DNA of 31,450 bases from a virus: IMG/VR virus record IMGVR_UViG_3300008050_000179, positions 1-31,450 of that record; one strand, given 5' to 3'. Positions within the stretch are counted from its first letter, which is position 1, and each line of letters begins with the position of its first letter. The translations under genes and the position numbers were made by a program. Below are positions 21,466 through 31,450 of the stretch, piece after piece. The notes under the pieces are model-generated. The model was not told the origin of the DNA. It was given only the letters and a program-made list of their open reading frames with translations, and made no database searches.

Positions 21466-23997
21466 CTAATGCCAATTATTTGGATCTATCCGTACTTTCG
21501 GGCTACGGTCTGCCCCGTCGAAGACGGACACGAGACGCAAGCCACGCCAACACTTGAGGCTACGCCAGGTACTGCCCACCTTCTCTTTGGCGACAATCTT
21601 CTCGTAGCCCCGCTCGCGGACTGCCTTCGAGAAGGACCTTGCCCCGTAGACTTTCTCACCTCGGTCCTCGGCCCACTCCTGGTAGGCTGCGTACAGACTC
21701 ATCACAGGTAGCCGTCCCTGGTCTTGAGGCGCGGTCCTCTCTTCGAGGAACTCCCCCAGCCAATCCGACTCCTTCCGGTACTTCTCCACAGCGGCCCGTA
21801 CTTCCTCGGGGGGACACAGGCCTTGCTCGTACCATTGCTTTGCGCCTTCGATGATCCAGTTCAAGATCCCAGGCCCCTCATCGAGGAGCTTCTGCTCAAG
21901 CCGGAAGTCCATCTTGTCTTCCGAGATCGTCTGCTCGAAAGGCACGAGGTGGATACGTCGCCAGACCCCATGGTCCGTGCCTCGGATGAGAGGCTTGTGG
22001 TTCGTCAAGACACAGAGCTTGTGGGTCGGGTCGAAGTTGAAGAAGTCCTTCCGCATGAACCGGGCCTTGATCTGGTCCGACCCCGTCAACTGCTTGACGA
22101 GTCCCTCGTTCAGGACGCTCGACCGGTCCAACTCCGAGACAACTCCAAGCCGTTTCCCCCGTAGGTCCGCGACATGCGTTGGGTGCTGGTCTACATTAGA
22201 CCGGACCAAGACTGTAGCTGGGACTGGTGAAGCATAGTTTGCACCTAGACACTTCAGCAGCACATTGATGAAGGTGGTCTTGCCATTTGCCCCGTCGCCG
22301 ACGAAGAAGACAAGGACTTGCTCCTGAACCTCACCTGTAGCGAAGTAGCCCACGAGCCGTTGCATGTAGTCTATCAGAGCTTCGTTACCACTCATCATCC
22401 AGTGTACGAACTCTTCCCACTGGGGACACTCTGCCTCCTCTTGGTAAGAGACGTTCGTAAGGCAGGTGATACCATGAGAACGGTCGTGGTCTAGCAGAAC
22501 CCCAGACCGGAGGTCTATGGCTGTCGTTGGGGTCGAGAGTAGGTGATGGTTCCTGTCGAAGAAGACCCCCTCCGCTCGAAGCTTAGGGTCAACCTTGGCA
22601 AGCCCCACCGAGGCCTGCATGGCAGCCTTGGACTCAGCCCTAAGCGCGAACTTCTTGAGGAGGGTGGCCTTGTCGGGGTCATCTGCCTTGGCGGCGTTAG
22701 ACTCCGCGAAGATGAAGGTCGAGAGGTTAGTGGCCAGATGATATGGCAGGTCGTCATCCTGCTTCCACTGAAGGCCCGTCCAGTAGACCCACTTGTTCCA
22801 GTCCCCGACGAATCGGAGGTCTTCCCCGTAGTGGCGGACGAGCCGCTTCGCATTGCCCAAGTCCGTGAGGCCCGGGGACAAGGTTGTGGAAGGGGCTGCG
22901 GCAGTGGTTGCCGCAGTGGGATTGCTCCCAAGCTTGCCAAAGCGCTTCTGTAGCTTCCGCCAACCTAATGCTCGGTTCTTGCTATCACGCTCATTGCCTG
23001 GGCAGTCCTCATGGTGGCACCCGGCTGCGATACCCCCGGCATGGAGCTGAACGATGTAGGCACTGCCATCGGTGTGGCTCTTGTCCCAGGGACACTCGGA
23101 GAAGACCCACTTGCGTCCAAGGTTGGCCCAAGGGATAGGCCCATGGGCAGGAACTTGGTGACGATGGAGCCACATGTCCAACTGCGTAGACTTGGCCTCA
23201 TCCCGCTTGAGCCCCGACGCTCTGGGCGACATCTTGTGGAGCGCGTGTAGGTTCGACCAGGAGATTGGCCGGGTGTCTCCTGCTCGGAGGATACGGGCTC
23301 TCCGGTGAGGCCGACTCTCCGTGTCCTCCCCCTTTCGGGCATGAGTCCCGTACAACCGAATGATCCGTGACGGATTAACCACCGAGGGATCGATAAGAAC
23401 CCCGCGCTGGGCAAAGCGGAAGTCCAGATAATGTAGGAAGGACTGGATGAGTTTCTGTCTGTCCTTCTTGGGATTCTCATGGCCTTCTGTCTCGGCCTCT
23501 TCCTTGAGCCGCCAGAGAAGGTGGAAGCCATTGCCCGAGTCTGCGACCGTAGGGTAGGGCAAACCTTGCTCTTCTGCCCAGAGGACGACATCCTTGAGTA
23601 CGGCTGCGGCAGACCCCTTCTCCTCACGGGTGGCCGAGATACCCGAGGGCCTGTCTGCGTCGATGTCAACGAACAGGAACTTCCGCTCAACGATGTCCTT
23701 GTCTTGCGTCCCTCCTCCCTTCTCGGCCATTCGGACCTTGTTGGAGCAGCGCGCCAGCAAGGCTGGGTTGACAGGGTTCAACGTGACGTAGATGCCCGTA
23801 GCCCCTTGCTGGTCTAAGTGGACAGCGTCCCGGGCTAGGGCTGAGAAGTCATCGAAGAACCCCGAGAAGGTAGTTGTTCTTCTGCCTTGTGGTACCCCGA
23901 GGGCTCGGAGTTCAAGGACGGCGTTACGCTCAGGGTAGAGCGTAGTGAGGTAGGCCAGGACCTCTTCTGGAGATCCTGGGTCAGGGGGAACCTGCAT
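21466..23997 (-). CDS. Fused primase and SF3 helicase (AEP-D5 type), 843 residues
   Basis: This is the replication enzyme. Residues 105-220 form an archaeo-eukaryotic primase-like domain: FVDIDAD (109-115) supplies the metal-binding acids, SGNGFHLLW (154-162) the nucleotide-binding His, and IDPSVVNPSRIIRLYGT the third motif. A zinc-binding-like cluster (ECPWDKSH, then GCHHEDC, 301-332) links to a D5_N-like region. The SF3 helicase shows Walker A GDGANGKTT (567-575), Walker B-like GVVSELD (618-624), sensor VLTNHKP (663-669) and Arg finger GVWRRIHLVPF (677-687). The fusion resembles replicative proteins of P4-like plasmids and satellites and some phages. ATG at 23997 has GAGG six bases ahead. 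It follows a small HTH gene next to the candidate origin, as expected for an initiator-helicase. Confidence 0.9.
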   Translation of the reverse strand: MQVPPDPGSPEEVLAYLTTLYPERNAVLELRALGVPQGRRTTTFSGFFDDFSALARDAVHLDQQGATGIYVTLNPVNPALLARCSNKVRMAEKGGGTQDKDIVERKFLFVDIDADRPSGISATREEKGSAAAVLKDVVLWAEEQGLPYPTVADSGNGFHLLWRLKEEAETEGHENPKKDRQKLIQSFLHYLDFRFAQRGVLIDPSVVNPSRIIRLYGTHARKGEDTESRPHRRARILRAGDTRPISWSNLHALHKMSPRASGLKRDEAKSTQLDMWLHRHQVPAHGPIPWANLGRKWVFSECPWDKSHTDGSAYIVQLHAGGIAAGCHHEDCPGNERDSKNRALGWRKLQKRFGKLGSNPTAATTAAAPSTTLSPGLTDLGNAKRLVRHYGEDLRFVGDWNKWVYWTGLQWKQDDDLPYHLATNLSTFIFAESNAAKADDPDKATLLKKFALRAESKAAMQASVGLAKVDPKLRAEGVFFDRNHHLLSTPTTAIDLRSGVLLDHDRSHGITCLTNVSYQEEAECPQWEEFVHWMMSGNEALIDYMQRLVGYFATGEVQEQVLVFFVGDGANGKTTFINVLLKCLGANYASPVPATVLVRSNVDQHPTHVADLRGKRLGVVSELDRSSVLNEGLVKQLTGSDQIKARFMRKDFFNFDPTHKLCVLTNHKPLIRGTDHGVWRRIHLVPFEQTISEDKMDFRLEQKLLDEGPGILNWIIEGAKQWYEQGLCPPEEVRAAVEKYRKESDWLGEFLEERTAPQDQGRLPVMSLYAAYQEWAEDRGEKVYGARSFSKAVRERGYEKIVAKEKVGSTWRSLKCWRGLRLVSVFDGADRSPKVRIDPNNWH

Positions 23998-24037: not shown

Positions 24038-24256
24038 CTAGTTGTCAGAGGCGTCTGTTGTATCAGGCTCGGAGGCGCTCAGGAGGTCTACGATGGACGT
24101 GCGTGGGATGCGTTTCGAGGTTGTACGTGACCCAATCCCCAAGACGATGACTCGGAGCTTCTTCCTTTCCACGAGGCGGCGAACGGTGCGAGCACTGAGG
24201 CCCAAGATCTGGCCAGCGGACTCGAAGGTGTAGAGCAGTGGTGTCTCTGGAAGCAT
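24038..24256 (-). CDS. Small excisionase/MerR-type HTH protein, 72 residues
   Basis: ATG at 24256 is preceded by GGAG seven bases away. Residues 6-35 read LLYTFESAGQILGLSARTVR, then RLVERKKLRVIVLG. This is the helix-turn-helix plus wing of the MerR/excisionase superfamily (HTH_17-like). The start with a beta strand, the sequence LGLSARTVRRLVE and a following GSRTTSKRIPRTSIVDLL wing-strand match the family. Length is typical of excisionases and phage regulators. It is the first leftward gene, directly beside the control region, so it could bind the CTACCG array or the promoter and regulate itself. No integrase is visible, so excision is not the obvious role; a control or replication function is more likely. 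Confidence 0.75.
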   Translation of the reverse strand: MLPETPLLYTFESAGQILGLSARTVRRLVERKKLRVIVLGIGSRTTSKRIPRTSIVDLLSASEPDTTDASDN

Positions 24257-24284
24257 GGACTATCTCCAACTAGGGTGTGGGGAC

Positions 24285-24313
24285 ATGGTATCGGAATTGT
24301 CCTACCCCGTCAA
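24285..24313 (-). promoter_or_regulatory. Candidate leftward promoter for the HTH-primase-late unit
   Basis: On the minus strand TTGACG (24313-24308) is separated by exactly 17 bases from TACCAT (24290-24285). Five of six and four of six positions match the sigma-70 consensus. Expected start lies near 24278, about 20 bases ahead of the HTH gene's ATG, leaving room for its GGAG site. Confidence 0.5.
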
Positions 24314-24423
24314 ACAACTTCCTCAACTTTTCTGTTGGGACCCCAACGGACTGGGGGCCGCCGCAGCCTTCACCTGGGGTACAGTTGTGGCTAGGACTGC
24401 CAGAGCTTGTCGGACTTCGTCCT

Positions 24424-24814
24424 CTACCGCTATCGGTAGAAGTCGTCTTCGCTATCGGTAGAAAACGCAAAATGGGCCAACGCTGGACCCTGGGTTATCG
24501 AGAGTTTTCTACCGCTACGAGAGTTTTCTACCGATAGGATTTCTATCGGTAGAACGATTATGCCCCTTGCCCCCTGGGCTATGGCCCAAAAGGCCTTTCT
24601 ACCGCACTTTGTTATGTTTTGTGCTCGTAGAAAAAAAAACACACAGGTGTGTGTGGGGTGTGTGTGAAAGAGTTTGGTTATTATTTATTGATGTCTTATT
24701 TTATCGGTAGAAACGGTAGAAAACAACTATAATAGAGTTAGAAAGTAGAATAATCGTTCTACCGTTTTTCTACCGTTCTACCGCTACTATCAAAAAGAGC
24801 ATTCCTAACGGTAG
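24424..24814. repeat. Array of 13 CTACCG/CGGTAG sites, candidate origin iterons
   Basis: The hexamer CTACCG (or its complement CGGTAG) starts at 24424, 24434, 24456, 24509, 24528, 24547, 24599, 24705, 24714, 24759, 24770, 24778 and 24809. Most are extended to TTCTACCG or CGGTAGAA, often with an added AT. Both orientations occur, and several form back-to-back pairs. The segment from about 24600 to 24760 is markedly richer in A and T than its surroundings. The pattern fits iterons of a replication origin or a multi-site operator, next to an initiator-type helicase and a small HTH protein. Confidence 0.8.
24526..24554. repeat. Perfect 12-bp inverted repeat inside the CTACCG array
   Basis: TTCTACCGATAG at 24526-24537 is followed after five bases by its exact complement CTATCGGTAGAA at 24543-24554. 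It could be a two-sided protein site or a cruciform/hairpin. A shorter CTACCG-CTAT-CGGTAG pair lies at 24424-24439. Confidence 0.85.
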
Positions 24815-24838
24815 AAAAAACTACCCCAAAGCAAAGGG

Positions 24839-24867
24839 TTGACCGTGGGTGACCCATATGCTAAACT
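24839..24867 (+). promoter_or_regulatory. Candidate rightward promoter
   Basis: TTGACC (24839-24844) and TAAACT (24862-24867) are separated by 17 bases. It lies immediately right of the CTACCG array. The first rightward gene begins about 750 bases further on, so the transcript would have a long leader crossing the direct repeats and palindromes; other promoters nearer the gene are possible. Confidence 0.4.
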
Positions 24868-25030: not shown

Positions 25031-25253
25031 TTGCCATGTCAATACCGGACCTGAAGTGTCACATGAGGGTTTTAGTGACCTGAACAAGTGTTCACGGGGC
25101 TGGCCATTCCTGGGTACTGTACGGGTGTTCACTATTCACTAATGAATGAACGCTCATTCATTATGTGGTGAGGTTGGCATGTCAATAGTGGACATCATGT
25201 ACCACTTGAGGTCTTGGCATGTCAATACCGGACATCATGCACCGCTTGAACCC
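25031..25253. repeat. Three direct repeats of about 38 bp with an inverted core
   Basis: Copies begin at 25031, 25174 and 25214 (the last two 40 bases apart). Each starts TTG[GC]CATGTCAATA, continues [CG]..GGAC and ends near a CACTTGAGG-like box. In the second and third copies ATGTC-N7-GACAT is a perfect five-base inverted repeat; the first has GACCT. They look like binding sites for a dimeric regulator or an initiator. Confidence 0.8.
25140..25163. promoter_or_regulatory. Palindromic operator-like site 1 (TGAATGA type)
   Basis: Ten-base arms TAATGAATGA and TCATTCATTA surround the four-base centre ACGC. The inner 18 bases differ at one position from the second palindrome at 25341. The spacing and sequence style resemble operators of TetR-type repressors. 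The upstream TGAACA..TGTTCA pair at 25081-25094 is a separate shorter dyad. Confidence 0.75.
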
Positions 25254-25340
25254 CGGCTCGGTACATCTGAACCTTCATTCATTTTTGAAGGAACTTAAAA
25301 CTCGGGCTGTTATGGTTGACACTCCCTTGACAAACGTGGA

Positions 25341-25360
25341 CTGAATGAACGTTCATTCAG
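25341..25360. promoter_or_regulatory. Palindromic operator-like site 2, perfect 20-bp palindrome
   Basis: CTGAATGAACGTTCATTCAG is a perfect palindrome. It lies eight bases after the second of two TTGACA hexamers (25316-25321 and 25327-25332), so a bound protein could block a promoter there, although no good -10 box is visible. Confidence 0.8.
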
Positions 25361-25376
25361 CGAGCGTGTCCACCTT

Positions 25377-25466
25377 TGTCCAGGCTAGTCCCGAACTGTC
25401 CAGGTTATAACTAGTCTTTCACGGACTAGCCGATATAGGGGGGTCGGGATTGTCCAGGTTGTAACT
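25377..25466. repeat. TGTCCAGG repeat cluster with inverted repeat
   Basis: TGTCCAGG begins at 25377, 25397 and 25451. The last two extend to TGTCCAGGTTATAACT and TGTCCAGGTTGTAACT. Between them, CTAGTC at 25411 and GACTAG at 25424 form a dyad, and GGCTAGTCC at 25383 pairs exactly with GGACTAGCC at 25423. It is a likely regulatory site just before the first early gene. Confidence 0.75.
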
Positions 25467-30503: not shown

Positions 30504-30545
30504 GAACAGAGAGGCACCGTCCTCTCAATGATTAGTCCTAGATGT

Positions 30546-30592
30546 CCACACCCAGAGGAGGTGTGGGCATTTGGTCTGTTCATTGGGAACAG
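30546..30592 (+). terminator. Weak double hairpin after the DUF932-like gene
   Basis: CCACACC/GGTGTGG (30546-30552, 30560-30566) and CTGTTC/GAACAG (30576-30581, 30587-30592) form two short stems before the next leader. There is no T run, so termination is uncertain; they may be processing sites instead. Confidence 0.35.
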
Positions 30593-30617
30593 AGTTGAGA
30601 CAACAGAAGGAGAGACC

Positions 30618-31450
30618 ATGAGAATCGTCCACGGTATCAGCCCCAACTACGTCCCCCACTGGAGACGCGCAGAATGCGTGCGAGAGCACATTCAAAACGG
30701 AGCGGATGAGCAAATCACAGGAGGGTTCGCCCTCACTGTGACCTACAGCGCACGTACAAACACCCTCACCATCCACAACAAGGGGGCGGAGATGGCTCGC
30801 TGTGCCCTTATGATGGGTGGAGGAAAGAAGGCAGGGAACGCCCTAGCCATCGGTGAGAACGGAGAGGGATGGAAGCTGGCCAACCTAGCTGCGCATCGGG
30901 AGGACCTGAAGGTTCACACCGACACAGGTGGGGAGCGGTGGCGCTCCACCGTCGAGTACGACGAAGGGTTCGGAGGGGAGACCCTCGTAACCCGCATCCG
31001 AAAGCTCGGTGGCACCAGTGATGGTGTCAGTGTAGTGATTCAGGGGATCACTCCCGAGGAGTGGGAGGAGATGGTAGGACACTACCGTTTCCTAAAGGAG
31101 GTGTCCTCCTCACGGGGGACCACCACGTACAAGTATCACCCGACAGGGGGGAGCTACCGAGGGTCCATCATTCAAGACGGGAACCCGGGCGAGCTGTTCG
31201 TCAAGGGTATTTTCGTCACCACCCTGAAGGGGAACTGGGCGTTCGCCTATGACCTCAAGCAGGTGGAGCTGAACCGGGACCGAGACATTCCTGACATGTG
31301 GGATGTCGAGTACCAGGTCCGCCTCCTCATCGCAGAGGAGAGCGCAGACCTTGACTGTATGGCACTGGCCAAGGGTGACACCAAGGAGGCGGGGCTCCTG
31401 GCAGAAACCCACTGCTACACCAACAGCTTCCACCGAGAGGTGGTGGCCGC
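30618..31450 (+). CDS. GHKL-type ATPase (Hsp90/MutL/gyrase fold), N-terminal part
   Basis: ATG at 30618 follows AGAAGGAGAGACC; the frame is open to the window edge (277 complete codons). Three GHKL signatures are visible: an N-box-like EHIQNGADEQ (residues 23-32), a modified G1 box IHNKGAEM (52-59), and a well-formed G2 box GENGEGWKLA (79-88) of the GxxGxG lid type. In G1 the usual Asp of DxGxG is replaced by Asn, and the second Gly by Glu. The later FVKGIFV strand and ELNRDRD motif recall phage GHKL proteins. This family binds ATP and changes shape, as in Hsp90, MutL and MORC. The phage role is unknown; hydrolysis may be weak or lost. Confidence 0.75.
   Translation, partial: MRIVHGISPNYVPHWRRAECVREHIQNGADEQITGGFALTVTYSARTNTLTIHNKGAEMARCALMMGGGKKAGNALAIGENGEGWKLANLAAHREDLKVHTDTGGERWRSTVEYDEGFGGETLVTRIRKLGGTSDGVSVVIQGITPEEWEEMVGHYRFLKEVSSSRGTTTYKYHPTGGSYRGSIIQDGNPGELFVKGIFVTTLKGNWAFAYDLKQVELNRDRDIPDMWDVEYQVRLLIAEESADLDCMALAKGDTKEAGLLAETHCYTNSFHREVVA

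Follow-up and report, generated by a model that had tools for sequence, protein, structure and literature searches.

Paired repeats around an AT-rich gap as the probable replication origin of an uncultured tailed-phage lineage

Where an uncultured tailed phage starts to copy its DNA, and which of its proteins recognizes that place, are the questions raised by a dense repeat array in the virus record IMGVR_UViG_3300008050_000179. The whole stretch analysed, 31,450 bases of this record, is called the window here. The word CTACCG/CGGTAG occurs in it 13 times at 24424-24814 (exact word count, both orientations), near genes for a small helix-turn-helix (HTH) protein and an archaeo-eukaryotic primase (AEP)/D5 helicase. 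From comparison of sequences, we consider the array most probably (probability about 0.86) a phage replication origin of the type known from phage-inducible chromosomal islands (PICI) and phage Sfi21, which the nearby AEP-primase/D5 helicase probably binds.

An earlier note on this DNA had judged the 13 six-base words to be beyond chance, and the exact count together with a local null confirmed it: a first-order Markov model of 24257-24850 gave 0.35 expected copies of CTACCG (maximum 4). Twelve of the 13 words extend to TTCTACCG, for which the same model gave 0.026 copies (maximum 2), and the remaining one (24422-24429) is CTCTACCG, with one mismatch. CTACCG totals 33 across the window, 20 of them outside the array, compared with 14.3 ± 3.9 in whole-window shuffles; outside the array, no 6-mer exceeded seven copies in any 400-bp stretch with both strands counted. 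The array is intergenic, with a minus-strand gene block on one side and small plus-strand genes on the other. That it spans an A/T-richer segment had been understated, since the 100 bp with the lowest GC in the window (28%, starting at 24661; next lowest 40%) lie between its sites. Its parts are as follows.

24422..24816, both orientations: iteron array of 12 TTCTACCG and one CTCTACCG, proposed replication origin (word count; 12 sites kept in the close relatives L003, L004 and L005)
24757..24816, no single strand: outer sites of the first arm, at 24757(+), 24768(+), 24776(+) and 24809(-) (site map)
24705..24721, minus strand: inner converging pair of the first arm, two TTCTACCG starting at 24705 and 24714, 9 bp apart (site map)
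24605..24704, no strand: gap with a GC content of 33%, AT-rich and a candidate for melting (includes the lowest-GC part of the window; gap present in all 16 fitting maps)
24597..24604, plus strand: inner site of the second arm, single here and a pair in most relatives (site map)
24422..24554, no single strand: outer sites of the second arm, at 24547(-), 24526(+), 24507(+), 24456(-), 24434(-) and 24422(+, one mismatch) (site map)
24564..24575, minus strand: GGGGGCAAGGGG block within the array, not an iteron (kept in L003, L004 and L005 only)

The close relatives of the helicase lay on three contigs, L003, L004 and L005 (99, 99 and 93% identity), and all 12 TTCTACCG sites were retained in each, with order and orientation unchanged. 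In L005, the DNA outside the array was hardly alignable and much of the inter-site DNA had diverged, with 12 of 12 sites intact; the GGGGGCAAGGGG block was also intact there and was absent from the upstream regions of relatives other than these three. L003 and L004, despite their 99% helicase identity, were entirely different past window position 25068. A second, unrelated repeat set occupies 25031-25466 of the same intergenic region and is probably regulatory (a 36-nt repeat beginning TTGGCATGTCAATACCGGACATCATG in three copies, three TGAACGTTCATTCA-type palindromes and two copies of TGTCCAGGTTATAACT). In its place, L003 (1-321) and L004 (1-325) carry unrelated DNA with many repeats of the TTCAC-N-GTGAA type, and both contigs break at this repeat region. 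A search of viral contigs for the array word itself returned 74 loci, nearly all without the helicase, which were set aside as probably chance or other repeats. Three contigs with no recognizable match to the proteins of the window (L052 at ~13040, L059 at ~8714 and L065 at ~6082) nevertheless have TTCTACCG 11-12 times in a 500-bp span.

More distant members of the lineage were found through the terminase (57-67% identity), and many of them have the helicase gene (36-41% identity) at the corresponding position; a profile search yielded others. A small HTH_17 gene followed by the AEP-primase/D5-helicase gene is the common gene order, the HTH gene adjoining the array in nearly every relative. 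In nearly all relatives that have this order and whose upstream DNA is long enough, a dense array precedes the helicase gene, written in about ten other words: AACTACAAA, TGTCTACAC or TGTCTACGC, TGACTACAC, GGTTACA, TGTAACC, TGTAACA, TGTAGACG, GCCACAAA, TACTACG, TGCTACC and, in L025, TGTCTAC. The commonest 7-mer in control windows from the same loci averaged ~2.5 copies. Among six near-complete relatives of 53-56 kb, no other word cluster in the genome was as dense as the array in four (G006, G007, G008 and G011; 10-12 copies, next-densest cluster 4-6), and in five the array contained one of the three 100-bp stretches lowest in GC. The helicase gene of G011 is divided between the two ends of its contig, a sign that the genome may be circular or circularly permuted.

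Under these changing words, the site maps show a layout that the lineage has retained: putative iterons in two sets, separated by an AT-rich gap. On either side of the gap stands a converging pair spaced by 7-9 bp, and more sites follow 41-58 bp farther out; the window's pair at 24705/24714 has a counterpart, written in a different word, in most relatives. The gap was 92-121 bp (130 in L119) and AT-rich in 16 of 17 maps, with 27-40% GC versus 44-57% for the upstream region. In the three maps below, > and < give orientation, numbers are start-to-start distances and == marks the gap; in the fullest maps the two arms are mirror images about it.

L025: > 11 > 11 > 25 < 41 > 9 > 9 > ==111== < 9 < 41 > 15 < 10 <
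L024: > 20 < 10 < 12 < 53 > 8 > ==102== < 8 < 41 > 13 < 10 { 10 <
Window: > 34 < 8 < 11 < 42 > 9 > ==109== < 49 > 22 < 19 < 50 > 22 >

The seventeenth map, L021, was a misfit with its commonest word, CTTGACA, which was rejected as the origin word; a layout-guided search gave TACTACG, which fits. CTTGACA itself forms a second array in L021 (13-15 copies at ~390-810), farther upstream than the origin-like one. The word of L020 was set by hand after automatic motif refinement had drifted to poly-A, and the orientations in L024, L124 and L031 are not independent evidence, because there the word was oriented by the layout. The earlier note had proposed looking in relatives for the same word and spacing: the spacing and layout recurred across the lineage, the word in L003, L004 and L005.

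The layout was also searched for independently of any word: a 6-mer had to be paired on one side of an 85-131 bp gap and paired as its reverse complement on the other, with at least 7 copies. This template matched 22 of 297 loci and none of their shuffled copies. This lineage accounted for 17 matches, several being overlapping retrievals of a single contig; another four adjoined D5 helicase genes of distant loci, and the last, with the word ATGCGC, fell in L061 (1519-1618), a contig without a recognizable helicase match to the window. Since all four distant matches lay 3' of the helicase gene, the template was relaxed (copy cut-off 6, at the 6-mer level) and applied to 147 distant D5 loci. There were 22 matches, 21 of them 17-93 bp past the helicase stop, a zone holding 5.7% of the bases (binomial 2e-25, with a smaller effective number because some loci are near-copies); shuffles gave one locus. 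The distant archaeal and bacterial loci had no array upstream of the helicase gene, the layout being found 3' in some, and the window and lineage loci had no full template 3' of theirs. Of the known phages checked, the layout was present in Mycobacterium phage Patt (AGGGAC, 10 copies, inner site 74 bp past the primase gene) and AcaML1 (TGACGG, 6 copies, 39 bp past its own primase gene), and no layout match was found near the polymerase gene of Bacteroides phage C3_41T2LP.

An annotated origin has the same organization. In Streptococcus phage Sfi21 (NC_000872, origin 34487-34784), 11 copies of GTTAC include pairs spaced by 8 bp, with an AT-rich gap of 77 bp between them; at the 6-mer level it has five copies, under the cut-off of the 147-locus search. 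As in most relatives, and on one side of the gap in the window, short iterons in pairs point towards the AT-rich gap. The origin adjoins a P4-type primase/helicase gene whose protein matches the window's helicase at 5e-14, and GTTAC or its reverse complement is contained in the words of L017, L119, L120, L024 and L124. The Sfi21 origin differs in lying directly 3' of its helicase gene, whereas that of the window is 5' of the HTH-helicase operon; its gap is shorter, its word is unlike the window's, and its annotated protein (382 aa) aligned with the helicase part only. PICI origins, including those of the Staphylococcus aureus pathogenicity islands (SaPI), lie immediately 3' of rep, with iteron sequences given element by element (PMC6092414). 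The 21 distant matches just past the helicase gene occupy this PICI position (PMC6092414), whereas the window's array is 5' of its operon, in phages that are tailed and of 53-56 kb in near-complete relatives; because it does not lie 3' of rep, we do not file it as a PICI origin.

Two further systems resemble the window in their proteins. The pRN1 and BIP-1 proteins combine an AEP primase, a superfamily 3 (SF3) helicase and a winged helix, their replication has been proposed to start at a 3' stem-loop without iterons, and pRN1 has a small DNA-binding repressor gene ahead of the replication gene (PMC4234260). The protein layout is thus shared, but the window has iterons, 5' of the operon. The gene after the helicase starts ~13 bases past its stop codon (helicase end 21466, next start 21453), which leaves no room for a pRN1-type stem-loop of ~100 nt, and none was found there. 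The alpha protein of phage P4, whose winged helix binds origin repeats, shares the P4-family helicase domain (TIGR01613) but has a Toprim-type primase (PMC4234260) versus the AEP type in the window.

The genes, the candidate reading domain and the promoter-like sites around the array are listed below.

24038..24256, minus strand: small DNA-binding protein (72 aa) of the HTH_17/excisionase type, encoded by the operon's first gene (Pfam HTH_17 1.8e-07)
21466..23997, minus strand: AEP-type primase/D5 (P4-family, SF3) helicase, 843 aa, proposed initiator (D5_N 2.4e-23, Pox_D5 3.1e-06)
21532..21807, minus strand: residues 731-822 of the helicase, a C-terminal domain predicted to form a winged helix and proposed to read the iterons (AlphaFold2 secondary structure H-H-E-H-H-E-E)
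24285..24313, minus strand: candidate sigma-70-like promoter for the HTH-helicase operon, beyond the edge of the array (consensus match only)
24839..24867, plus strand: candidate sigma-70-like promoter flanking the array at its opposite end (consensus match only)

The array had been described as lying beside both the helicase and the small HTH gene; the HTH gene does adjoin it, but its 72 codons separate the array from the helicase gene. The small protein matched TIGR01764 at 0.00019, under the family cut-off. The helicase is a P4-family member by its TIGR01613 match (5.6e-87, 291 bits versus a cut-off of 108.7), and its Pox_D5 match covers the C-terminal region. AEP motifs (DxD, SxH-like and hD), assigned by eye, were located in its N-terminus as D111-x-D113, S154-G-N-G-x-H159 and D203, residues that are invariant in 13 sequences. 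Whole-chain Foldseek matches had low TM-scores and confirm only the primase-plus-D5-helicase class. Terminase, portal and capsid genes follow the helicase on the same strand. At the far end of the window, the protein of 30528-31448 (+) matched PHROG 6077, a family of unknown function, at 3e-41 and had a weak match to a family of phage topoisomerase II large subunits.

The changing words allowed us to ask which protein reads them. The window and L005 have an identical word, with 96% identity in the helicase C-terminal region and 45% in the HTH protein (93% for the whole helicase); L014 and L020 have different words with an almost identical HTH recognition helix; and L025 and L127 have words one base apart with nearly unrelated HTH proteins (12% identity). 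Over 15 members, word distance correlated with that of the winged-helix region (r 0.37, p 0.001; 0.38 as a partial r controlling for the helicase core) and not clearly with that of HTH_17 (r 0.19, p 0.07; partial 0.03). A CTAC core was present in 8/8 members with a longer wing versus 2/8 without it (Fisher 0.007, uncorrected for descent; counts entered by hand from the sequences). These results favour the helicase as the reader, and it is likely that it, rather than another protein, recognizes the iterons. At such an origin, the C-terminal winged helix would bind the iterons, the converging inner pairs would place two opposing helicase hexamers at either side of the gap, the AT-rich gap would melt, and the primase domain would begin synthesis in both directions. 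The double hexamer and bidirectional start seem to us moderately likely.

The small HTH_17 protein enters two other explanations. The array could be its operator cluster, governing the flanking divergent promoters, as the earlier note had allowed; the HTH gene adjoins the array in nearly every relative, and the array lies between divergent genes, flanked at each end by a promoter-like site. However, word and protein are uncoupled in the three pairs above and in the partial correlation, the predicted promoters fall outside the array (a weak prediction from consensus matches), the same layout stands 3' of helicase genes in distant replicons, and neither the AT-rich gap nor the converging pairs are required by an operator, so that we regard this explanation as very improbable. 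Alternatively, the array could be an origin whose iterons are read by HTH_17, which would recruit the helicase; in most relatives its DLF-type C-terminus would also attract the host sliding clamp. The HTH gene is conserved between array and helicase gene, and many relatives' HTH proteins end in clamp-motif-like QLDLF, DLF or LF. Such C-termini were seen in 11 loci: QLDLF in L120 and L124, PLDLF in L021, FDLF in L014 and L020, and LF in L017, L024, L025, L118, L122 and L128. The motif is absent, however, from the proteins of the window and L005, and the uncoupling of word and HTH sequence and the recurrence of the template at helicase genes of distant replicons make this version unlikely too. 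Centromeres and pac sites can also be repeat clusters, but a partition, packaging or other structural site is hardly conceivable here: the array has the replication operon rather than the terminase genes as its neighbour, a scan of ten window proteins revealed no partition protein, and the AT-rich gap with inverted symmetry recurs in the annotated origin of Sfi21.

Several observations weigh against an origin read by the helicase. The window matches the layout template only in its half form, because the inner pair of one arm is reduced to a single site. G003/L016 shares the gene order but showed no recognizable array, and the array of L037 (word TTCAC) is weak. The arrays are related by descent, and the gap-and-orientation statistic of a single array is only modestly unlikely (random chance 0.02-0.13); word distance also correlated with the primase domain (r 0.48) above the winged helix. 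GC skew, which had been suggested as a check, does not turn at the array in the near-complete relatives, its extremes lying kilobases away; in the window its minimum is near 22-23 kb, and genes switch strand at the intergenic region. We consider this test uninformative because skew follows the gene strand switches. The strength of the origin case comes from the recurrence of the layout and from the 3' result rather than from per-array statistics. Comparison with relatives, the layout search and the Sfi21 origin thus support the earlier proposal of an iteron origin.

The layout of PICI origins was described in 2018 as occurring in no other known bacterial replicon (PMC6092414). It is now placed in an uncultured tailed-phage lineage and in phages Sfi21, AcaML1 and Patt, although earlier phage descriptions may exist, and also beside helicase genes in bacterial genome contigs and at least one archaeal one. 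Replicons with P4/D5-family helicases (tailed phages, PICIs, prophages and archaeal elements) may share one geometry, pairs 7-25 bp apart around an AT-rich gap of ~60-130 bp, in which the word changes with the winged helix and the origin moves from 3' to 5' of the gene; for us this generalization is evenly balanced. Origins are unknown for most phages, and if it is true, geometry and not sequence would be the conserved signal, by which origins could be found in unannotated genomes. The ~17 members of this lineage form a natural series of words in one layout beside their likely readers, and so would offer a data set on how a self-loading helicase shifts its DNA specificity while retaining the geometry it requires.
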